DNA from: Cohnella kolymensis
Lineage (GTDB): Bacteria; Bacillota; Bacilli; Paenibacillales; Paenibacillaceae
Assembly (NCBI RefSeq): GCF_000829465.1
Contig: NZ_JXAL01000034.1
Location: 62,001-126,000 of the forward strand
Reading direction: 5' to 3'
DNA length: 64,000 bases
Shown: piece after piece, positions 8,479-43,013 of the stretch
How the letters are laid out: each line of letters starts with the position of its first letter
Numbering within the stretch: the stretch's first letter is position 1
Notes under the pieces: generated by a model
The model's database searches: none
What the model was told of the DNA's origin: nothing
Seen by the model: the letters and a program-made list of their open reading frames with translations, nothing else
Translations under genes and position numbers: made by a program

Positions 8479-8579
8479 GTATATCTATAACAATGACTTC
8501 AACTGGGTAATACTAATTTATTGCTCTGCTGAATATGGATTCCGACGTTTGTCAGCGCGTCTGCAAAGGGGAGCAGCTA

Positions 8580-8942
8580 ATGGTTAACAGACAAGATGCG
8601 AAATATGTCCAACAGCATTTGGCTAATGAAAGAACCTATCTGGCTTGGATCCGCACAAGCATCACAATAGTCGGACTCGGCTTTCTCGCGGCAGGTGTTA
8701 TTTTCCGATCCTCTCCATACGGTATGGCGGGCCACCGGGTCGCGGCTGTGGTCGGCATAGGCGCAGTAGTGGCAGGCGGCGCAATCATGGGGCTTGCCAC
8801 TAAAGATTATTTTGTTAAGAGAAGAGGAATCAATGAGGAAGCGTTCCAAACGACTGCATTGCTTATATGGCTAATGCTGGTCACCTTAGGTGTTGTTGAC
8901 ATTTGTCTAGTGATTCTGGTCGTCATTTTAATGTTCTATTGA
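8580..8942 (+). CDS. DUF202 (YidH-like) small membrane protein
   Basis: 120 residues. It has the family signature LANERTYLAWIRTSITIVGLG at the N-terminus and three predicted membrane helices (about residues 25-45, 55-75 and 95-118). ATG 8580 is preferred because AAAGGGGAG lies 6 nt upstream; an in-frame ATG at 8535 has no SD. DUF202 proteins have no established biochemical function. The gene is followed directly by the 51-bp hairpin array, which occupies the place of a terminator. Confidence 0.85.
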   Translation: MVNRQDAKYVQQHLANERTYLAWIRTSITIVGLGFLAAGVIFRSSPYGMAGHRVAAVVGIGAVVAGGAIMGLATKDYFVKRRGINEEAFQTTALLIWLMLVTLGVVDICLVILVVILMFY

Positions 8943-8957
8943 CTTATAAGTATAATG

Positions 8958-9266
8958 TAAAAGCCAACGACAAGACGGCGAACCTGCCTTACACGAGCAA
9001 ACTCGATCTCTTGCGGAGCTGTAAGGCGACCAAACCGTCTTACACGCGCCAACTCGCCCATTCGTGGAGCTGTAAGGCGGCTAACTCGCCTTACACGAGT
9101 AAACTCGCTCGCGTGTGGAGATGTAAGGCGGCGAACCCGCCTTACACGCGCAAACTCACTCTCGTACGGAGATGTAAGGCGGCGAACCCACCTTACACGT
9201 GCAAATTCGCTCTTGTGTGGAGCTGTAAGACGACCAAATCGTCTTACACAAGGTCGTTGGCTTTTA
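8958..9266. repeat. Tandem array of 51-bp hairpin units bounded by a 14-bp inverted repeat
   Basis: Six units begin at 8970, 9021, 9072, 9123, 9174 and 9225, a period of exactly 51 bp; the last is partial. Each unit starts with a hairpin of about 23 nt, in the cleanest copy GTAAGGCGG-loop-CCGCCTTAC, followed by a linker of about 27 nt containing CAAACTCG or TAAACTCG. Stem changes are partly compensated: unit 6 has GTAAGACGA with TCGTCTTAC, while unit 2 keeps pairing through a G-U. The whole array is enclosed by a perfect 14-bp inverted repeat: TAAAAGCCAACGAC at 8958-8971 and GTCGTTGGCTTTTA at 9253-9266. It lies between convergent genes. Because 51 is a multiple of 3, an open reading frame with a 17-residue repeat crosses it, but that ORF has no SD and I treat it as a by-product. 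Confidence 0.9.
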
Positions 9267-9271
9267 ATGTT

Positions 9272-10339
9272 CTAAAGCAGCAAAGAACCGACAATTCCAC
9301 TTAATATACCGACTCCGATAACGGACAGAGCTACGAATAACAGGACTTTCTTGGGGAAAGATTTCGCCACCATAAAGAGTGAAGGAAGGCTGACGGCAGG
9401 CAGCGTGAGCAGCAAGGCCGCCGCCGGTCCCGCGCCAACGCCTAACGCCAAGAATGATTGGATGATCGGAATTTCTGCGGCTGTCGGAATGACGAACAGC
9501 ATGCCTGCCGCAGCAAACAGGATAATCGCGATAAAACCGGTGCTCATGGAAGTCGGAAAAATTAAGCCTTGCAAACCGCCCAGCAATAATACGGTAATGA
9601 TATAGGCTGGAATCACCTGCAGAGCTAGCGAGCCCAGCGCTCTAAGCCAGCGCAACAAGAAAGGTTTCTGTTGTTGTTCCGGCATCATTTCGGGTTCAAG
9701 GACCTTTGTTTCTGTCACGGCATCGGCATTGCGGTCCGCAAAACGATTTGCCCAATAACTGACTCCAAAGGTTAAAAGGACCCCGAACAAAACTCTAATC
9801 AGAGTAAATTTCCACGACAGTACAAAAGTCATAAAGATAAGCGTCGCCGGATTCAGGACCGGATTTCCGATCCAGAACGCCAAGCTGGCGCCGACAGAGA
9901 CATTCTTTTTTCTAAGACTTGCGGCGATAGGAGCTGCGCAGCAGGAGCACATCATACCGGGGATCGAGGCGGCGCCTCCCAATAAGGTGCTTCGCATACT
10001 TGCCTTGCCGAGTACTTTATGAAGCCATCCGGCTGGCAGCAGCACCTGTACCAAAGAGCCAAGCAGTATGCCAAGTACGGCTGCTTTCCATATCGCTTTG
10101 AAATATTTTTCGGCATAGCTCCAAGCGGAGCTCCATGACCAAGTACCGTCATTGGCACCCGAGAGGATGGAGGAACCGATGGAATGAGCCGTCGCAGCAG
10201 TCAGCGCTTTATGATAATACGGCCACCATTTTACATAAGTTAAACCGGCTATAACGATTAACACAAATACCATGATCATGACCGCCGCTTTTACCGTACT
10301 GCGTTGATCATTTAACTTCAAACTGTGTGCGGGTTGCAT
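9272..10339 (-). CDS. Predicted permease, COG0701 (UPF0718/ArsP-like) family
   Basis: 355 residues, 8 or more membrane helices. The diagnostic cysteine motif PGMMCSCCAAPIAASLRKKNV follows the first helical bundle and recurs as the weaker VIPTAAEIPIIQSF in the second half, showing the two-fold repeat of this family. WIGNPVLNPATLIFM is also typical. Members include the organoarsenical exporter ArsP, but the substrate of this one is unknown and no ars genes are nearby. The start is ATG 10339, with GGAGGG eight bases upstream; the extra TTG codon before it is not used. The gene converges on the DUF202 gene across the hairpin array. Confidence 0.85.
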   Translation of the reverse strand: MQPAHSLKLNDQRSTVKAAVMIMVFVLIVIAGLTYVKWWPYYHKALTAATAHSIGSSILSGANDGTWSWSSAWSYAEKYFKAIWKAAVLGILLGSLVQVLLPAGWLHKVLGKASMRSTLLGGAASIPGMMCSCCAAPIAASLRKKNVSVGASLAFWIGNPVLNPATLIFMTFVLSWKFTLIRVLFGVLLTFGVSYWANRFADRNADAVTETKVLEPEMMPEQQQKPFLLRWLRALGSLALQVIPAYIITVLLLGGLQGLIFPTSMSTGFIAIILFAAAGMLFVIPTAAEIPIIQSFLALGVGAGPAAALLLTLPAVSLPSLFMVAKSFPKKVLLFVALSVIGVGILSGIVGSLLL

Positions 10340-10489
10340 CAATATTTCCCTCCATATCTGTCTTGAAAAATAGCATAACTTCTATTATATAGGAAGGAGT
10401 CTGGATCTGTTAAGCGTAAATACAGTAAAAACAGGAAGAAGGTGGTCGATATGCGAGTGTTCGCGCACGCCACCCCTAAAGGAGGACTT

Positions 10490-42781: not shown

Positions 42782-43013
42782 TTTAAACCGCTGCGAACGG
42801 CTTAATTCTCGTAAATCGGGCTCCAGCCGCCATTTAAGCCGCTGCGAACGGCTTAATTCCAGTAAATCAGGCTCCATCTGCCATTTAAGCCGCTGCGACG
42901 GGGTTATTTCTCGGAATTCACGTTTCTTCCGCCATTTAAGCCGCTCTGGTCGGCTTAAATCTGTAAAAAGCAGAGCATTCGCTCTATAAGCCGCTACAAT
43001 CTGATTAAATCTT
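42782..43013. repeat. Second tandem array of 51-bp hairpin units
   Basis: Units begin at 42782, 42833, 42884, 42935 and (degenerate, partial) 42986, again exactly 51 bp apart. The stem is TTAAGCCG pairing with CGGCTTAA around a 7-nt loop (unit 2). Unit 4 has a perfect 9-bp TTTAAGCCG/CGGCTTAAA with a different loop. The linker contains GTAAA at nearly the same offset as in the 8.96-9.27 kb array and ends in a C-rich GCCA or TGCCA. The architecture (25-nt hairpin plus 26-nt linker) equals that array although the sequence differs. It lies directly behind the operon terminator. ORFs of 17-residue periodicity exist on both strands as a consequence of the period being divisible by 3. No gene in the remaining gap to 43127. 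Confidence 0.87.

Follow-up and report, generated by a model that had tools for sequence, protein, structure and literature searches.

Tandem intergenic repeats of roughly 50–100 bp occur at many loci in mycobacteria in the form of MIRU, which make up one sequence family. As generally described, MIRU resemble the arrays reported here in being tandem, intergenic and present at many loci, but are set apart by that single family. Closest in layout are the BOX elements of Streptococcus pneumoniae. These are intergenic and dispersed, are built as boxA-boxB(n)-boxC, where the outer modules enclose tandem boxB modules whose number varies, have a predicted stem-loop fold and are over-represented between convergent genes (PMC3049150). 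Closest in unit anatomy are the GTAG/CGTC palindromes of REP, BIME and REPIN elements, together with the RAYT/BIME systems. These palindromes are short, intergenic and often clustered and vary in ways that preserve the stem, and the CGTC families have 8–9-bp stems and 4–5-nt loops, seemingly without a dedicated transposase (PMC3733652, PMC2817692). Neither "Firmicutes" nor "Paenibacillus" occurs in PMC3733652. Finally, the tandem repeats of Borgs form many rapidly evolving, independently formed arrays in one lineage; they belong to archaeal extrachromosomal elements, and the part of their description consulted gives no fixed period (PMC9879509).

The window analysed here, a stretch of 64,000 nucleotides from Cohnella kolymensis, contains at 8958–9266 an array that the first-pass annotation could assign to no named element. 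That statement has to be qualified, since BOX elements, as far as the cited account goes, are similar in general layout, the likeness including the variable number of tandem inner modules (2–8 units here) (PMC3049150). However, BOX is defined in that account by shared outer modules, whereas the 14-bp arms of the Cohnella array are private to one locus of 26, and the Cohnella arrays, unlike BOX, have many unit sequences with only their length in common. Compared with REP/BIME, the Cohnella units carry no tag, stand head to tail and have a nearly constant length, and no RAYT was found in the genome. A search of the open-access literature yielded no description of such arrays in Cohnella or Paenibacillus, which given that scope is weak evidence.

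The array at 8958–9266 and its closing arms

The array consists of six head-to-tail 51-bp units, as first described: TRF reports a tandem array of period 51 with 5.5 copies and 77% match (Table 1), and the hairpin cores of the six units begin at 8971, 9022, 9073, 9124, 9175 and 9226, all five spacings being 51 bp. It is closed by a perfect 14-bp inverted repeat, TAAAAGCCAACGAC and GTCGTTGGCTTTTA, and does lie in the position of a terminator between convergent genes. The protein encoded on the left gave no match in an NCBIfam search at 1e-10, and the permease-like protein on the right scores far under the cut-offs of the SaoE and SO_0444 efflux models.

Table 1. Features at and around the 51-bp array (positions in the window).
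Feature	Position	Strand	Remark
Left convergent neighbour, small-protein gene	8577..8942	+	membrane-like by eye
Left 14-bp arm	8958..8971	none	read as half of a split terminator; among 26 arrays, arms only at this one
Unit 1 hairpin	8969..8993	+	degenerate
51-bp tandem array	8972..9249	none	TRF
Unit 2 hairpin	9020..9044	+	one G.U and one A.C
Unit 3 hairpin	9071..9095	+	
Unit 4 hairpin	9122..9146	+	
Unit 5 hairpin	9173..9197	+	one C.A mismatch
Unit 6 hairpin	9224..9248	+	two compensated pairs
Right 14-bp arm	9253..9266	none	5 bp off the permease stop codon
Right convergent neighbour, permease-like gene	9272..10342	-	SaoE / SO_0444 efflux models

The claim that every unit has a 9-bp stem did not hold. 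Folded alone, unit 1 is no better than chance (z -0.09), compared with z values of -2.0 to -2.5 for units 2, 3, 4 and 6 and -1.1 for unit 5; an A.C mismatch accompanies the G-U change noted before in unit 2, and unit 5 has its C.A mismatch. The stem changes of unit 6 are compensated, as claimed. The fold comparison proposed at the same time gave a clear result: 8950–9275 has a predicted fold of -138.2 kcal/mol against a shuffle mean of -94.0 (n = 100, z -9.7, 0 of 100 as low). AAGACG of unit 1 is indeed complementary to CGTCTT of unit 6, but the long-range pairing proposed between them is missing from both the minimum-energy and the centroid structure, in which CGTCTT pairs with its own arm.

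A closing inverted repeat of at least 13 bp was found, among 26 arrays, only at this locus. The next longest flanking inverted matches are 12 bp (L028, where the match stems from a terminator present twice) and 9 bp (L037), the other 23 arrays having at most 8 bp, and cross-array controls reach 12 bp. The arms end in A4/T4 and enclose 281 bp. One weak minus-strand terminator match lies at 8988–8969, and the array region holds 2 terminator matches versus 1.5 in shuffles. Permease orthologues were compared at 11 further Cohnella loci, and in seven of them a long terminator-like hairpin starts within 30 bp of the stop codon; one of the remaining four has a weak terminator-like hairpin and three have no convincing one. 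The permease loci of G029 and C. luojiensis, of G007 and C. xylanilytica, and of G013 and C. caldifontis are identical, and on this ground we equate each of these genomes with the species named beside it. Because a terminator stands at this place behind most of the permease orthologues, we read the arms, from their position and shape, as a putative bidirectional terminator of the convergent pair that has been split by the array in its loop. No tandem array with a period of at least 28 lies at any of the 11 orthologue loci, and none of them offers an empty site for comparison, since the left neighbour was not found beside the permease gene at any of the 11 and synteny is lost.

A dispersed hairpin repeat

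The short hairpin repeat that makes up this array recurs in intergenic DNA at about 30 places of the source genome (4.34 Mb in 34 contigs), where the array gave 64 BLAST matches at E<=10. A covariance model, R1, built from 84 units gave 163 matches at E<=0.05, many of them palindromes counted on both strands; by hand count of the match list these fall at 31 places, 30 of which have at least two units. The 27 arrays that were fetched contain 128 hairpin cores in arrays of 2–8 units. Leaving out three wider gaps (84, 97 and 101), the spacings of adjacent cores below 70 bp are 47 (once), 50 (6), 51 (50), 52 (38), 53 (2) and 54 (once), so that 94 of 98 are within 50–52 bp. An entire array may have come to rest at 50, 51 or 52 bp, and units of 50 and 52 bp also occur inside one array.

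Each unit is made up of a palindrome, a 21–25-bp hairpin with an 8–11-bp stem and a 5-nt loop, and a spacer of about 26 bp, together 51 (50–52) bp. The 51-column consensus of 94 units is tcgcgcggCGAGCTGTAAGGCGGCtAAACCGCCTTACAcGAaaaAATtCgC. Units are directional and follow one another head to tail in each array. For L018, whose orientation is ambiguous, + was assumed in the mismatch and conservation counts. In L011, L013, L014, L016, L017 and L028, GGCGG-type and CCGG-type units are joined with their spacing kept. Near copies of a gene with an array edge are present on two contigs (L010 at the end of G000:C5 and L022 at G000:C1:395245); they differ in unit number, contain some N, and represent either a duplication or an assembly overlap. 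The window has a second 51-bp array, at 42782–42980, with a TTAAGCCG/CGGCTTAA hairpin (TTTAAGCCGCTGCGAACGGCTTAA) directly behind a terminator-like hairpin; the cluster test did not link its unit to that of the first array.

Sequence conservation is concentrated in the stems. Over 124 units from 26 arrays it is 0.88 for stem columns, 0.61 for the loop and 0.48 for the spacer. Hairpins are 0.79 identical within arrays and 0.74 between them, and spacers 0.51 within versus 0.34 between, which is not the pattern of a CRISPR array. The annotated stem conservation with partial compensation extends to the family: both sides of a pair are changed in 25 cells of the 84-unit set versus 10.9 in shuffles, with 0 of 500 shuffles reaching 25, in a count where the TAAG...CTTA columns are fixed because they were used to pick the set, and where 17 of the 25 cells fall at one pair, which separates subfamilies.

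Of 25 arrays (L012, L022 and L034 left out), 12 are flanked by convergent genes, 11 by co-directional and two by divergent genes, compared with 12, 91 and 23, respectively, among 126 regions taken as background (Fisher 2.4e-5 for convergent and 0.25 for divergent), as classed by a crude gene caller that missed the left neighbour of the 8958–9266 array, its class being unchanged. The convergent enrichment is also seen when regions are weighted by length, the convergent share of the intergenic background then being 19% of bases (binomial 0.001). Twenty-one of the 25 placed arrays are clear of called genes; among L027, L030, L011 and L018, two overlap a gene and two touch one. A strict terminator match was found within 150 bp of six of the 25, the search pattern overlooking some terminators that can be seen in the sequence. 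There is no general target-site duplication: for all but one of the 25 arrays, the longest direct match between flanks is at most 8 bp. The exception is L028 with a 13-bp direct match, formed by two terminator copies, and unrelated pairs also reach 13 once. At L028 (2456–2787), near-exact direct copies of the terminator hairpin stand one on each side of the array.

A unit length shared across Cohnella

Matches to R1 at E<=0.01 are found in 16 of 60 genomes including the source, all of them among the 37 Cohnella genomes and none among the 23 outside. The covariance search suggested in the first-pass annotation thus gave matches in Cohnella alone among these genomes.

Unit length reaches further than this family. 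In a blind TRF census of seven Cohnella genomes, of which six have no R1 match and one (G003) has seven, 24 of 33 arrays with a period of at least 28 fall at 50–52 (20 of 27 by site). The stretches were chosen irrespective of arrays, and G000, G014 and G010 were left out on account of their contigs with R1 matches. In two genomes from other families of the order (680 kb), one of 13 arrays is at 50–52, giving a Fisher value of 1.3e-4 by array, which is overstated as arrays within one genome are not independent. Within the seven, the three genomes added as a replication (G015, G006 and G035) gave 11 of 12, the twelfth array having a period of 104, and the blind stretch of G012 gave 0 of 1. Seven named Cohnella loci (40 kb) contained no tandem array. 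Elsewhere, periods of 50–52 were found for one of five arrays at 58 loci of non-Cohnella Firmicutes and for none of the one array at 15 loci of Pseudomonas and Herbaspirillum.

Two genes present in all 37 genomes, recA and hemL, served as fixed points, and for each gene the analysis covered its 30 best loci. An array of period 50–52 lies upstream of recA in 7 of 30 genomes (source included), in five of them between cinA and recA and in G023 and G013 with cinA beyond the stretch. These seven arrays fall into seven sequence clusters, or six after joining by R1. The cinA-recA spacer varies from 194 to 926 bp at the 27 loci with both genes, the array-free ones including the shortest as well as some that are long. 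In 11 sequences the recA leader appears intact by eye, as does the CGAACAAATGTTC-type box, which we take to be the LexA box. Between hemL and the next gene, an array of period 50–52 is present in 4 of 29 other genomes. Over both genes and without the source genome, 13 of 25 arrays are at 50–52, or 12 of 21 if overlaps with period 15–24 are dropped. The positions upstream of recA and behind hemL are taken by different arrays in different species.

A strict pairwise test sorted 41 Cohnella arrays into 26 clusters; R1 links three of these (those of G000 and of G014/G013/G007, and a singleton from G010), leaving 24, and on visual comparison an array of G006 looks similar to the G023 family. Against single-base shuffles of the consensus, 16 of the 42 rows of period 50–52 (41 arrays, one G023 array being entered twice) have a consensus hairpin at p<=0.05, compared with none of the 26 arrays whose period is different. 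In 12 of the 15 strongest cases the loop is 5 nt long. Since more than half of the period 50–52 arrays lack a significant hairpin, the palindrome is not the whole cause of the period. We conclude that the hairpin is common and dispensable, and that unit length is the shared trait of Cohnella arrays.

Other repeats were seen along the way. A Paenibacillaceae MAG, outside named Cohnella, has a 52-bp array with a CAACAGCT...AGCTGTTG palindrome (L092, 5695–5899). In the sister-genus species Paenibacillus cellulosilyticus and P. terricola, period-42 hairpin-bearing tandem repeats lie near 1041–1294 (L112 and L113). A CTCAGGTG or GGGATA-type dispersed repeat, recognised by eye in Cohnella (L159 15996–16371, L160, L163, L218, L220, L222 and L236), has no fixed period (34–73 bp) and in places also lies upstream of recA.

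Explanations for the arrays

We consider it probable that the array at 8958–9266 belongs to a dispersed intergenic minisatellite of Cohnella, which if active would act at the DNA level, and that it lies inside the loop of a convergent-gene terminator. What comparison establishes is the dispersal, the near-constant unit length, the likeness within arrays, the conservation of stems and the preference for convergent 3' ends. Comparison of loci and species further suggests that arrays may reach new intergenic sites, may grow and shrink by whole units, and may be homogenised internally with sequence turning over among loci and species. They would be tolerated mainly between the 3' ends of genes, and any action would be that of hairpin-forming or phased-site DNA and not of RNA. 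For the constancy of 51 bp, the candidates are a length-measuring process of expansion and selection for the same helical phase. Inheritance of an ancestral length as the sole cause seems unlikely, because arrays of period 50–52 never drift far while their sequence is replaced. To our knowledge, no mechanism accounts for a unit of about 51 letters common to many different repeat sequences. We put forward, as a tentative idea that may well be wrong, that a hitherto unknown Cohnella process builds and keeps tandem arrays out of many unrelated sequences, with the unit fixed near 51 bp: a DNA ruler acting at recurrent intergenic sites without RAYT or reverse transcriptase, for which the hairpin would be favoured but dispensable. 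Reverse transcriptase was rejected as the maker of the arrays, since no match to PF00078 was found in G010, G013, G003 or G015, all of which have period 50–52 arrays.

The arrays could instead be helically phased binding sites for a DNA-binding or nucleoid protein, with palindromic sites every five turns. The 21-bp palindromes with a 5-bp centre, and a spacing that stays at 51 +/- 1 while sequence changes, would fit such a role. However, the site sequences differ even within one genome, and the census has no clear peaks at the neighbouring whole-turn lengths of about 42 and 62, and we regard this explanation as rather unlikely.

Structured RNA, as either the closed multi-hairpin transcript originally envisaged or 3'-UTR hairpins serving to stabilise mRNAs or to terminate transcription, would account for the strong predicted fold (z -9.7), the conserved and partly compensated stems, and the enrichment between convergent 3' ends. 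L016, L017 and L025 begin within 1–3 bp of a stop codon, and on the units' own strand G.U slightly exceeds A.C (61 versus 50). Against this, some arrays (L009, L019 and the second one in the window) lie behind an intrinsic terminator, and units take either orientation to genes, running with co-directional genes four times and against them seven times. In arrays with co-directional neighbours (59 units), counted on the gene-sense strand, G.U at 14 is rarer than A.C at 36, although these mismatch counts represent few independent events as units of one array share descent. The mismatches thus carry no clear RNA signature. No match at the gathering score of any of 4227 Rfam families was found in the window, the best in 8900–9350 having an E of 2.2, far under its gathering score. 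With closing arms at one of 26 arrays, both orientations of units, these mismatches and the predicted structures, a single closed RNA is rejected as a feature of the family, and an RNA role of any of these kinds appears unlikely.

A non-autonomous REP/BIME-type element mobilised by a RAYT (Y1 transposase) would explain dispersed, clustered intergenic palindromes of 21–25 bp with stem-preserving changes and few copies in divergent regions, and the 128 cores in 27 arrays do agree with extragenic palindromes of 20–40 bp in high copy. However, the source genome, which is the richest in R1 matches, gave no match to Y1_Tnp (PF01797, E<=0.001) in its draft of 34 contigs. Across the 37 Cohnella genomes the domain is present in 12, namely 4 of 16 with R1 matches and 8 of 21 without. 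GTAG or CGTC, on either strand, stands next to the hairpin only 6 times in 124 units, and units lie head to tail in place of the alternating orientation of BIMEs. Mobilisation of this kind is improbable.

Coding repeats of 17 codons can be dismissed: 51 is a multiple of three and the frame 8903–9304 is open across the array, but 50- and 52-bp units are common, even inside one array, which refutes coding as a general explanation, many arrays have no frame open throughout, and arrays sit between cinA and recA or between hemL and the next gene.

For the minisatellite reading that we favour, these findings carry the caution that conserved, compensated hairpins at the 3' ends of genes need not be RNA elements. 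If the combination of constant length and free sequence is true, something measures 51 bp in Cohnella, and this would either be a new route to bacterial tandem repeats or mean that intergenic DNA is constrained by length in a new way.
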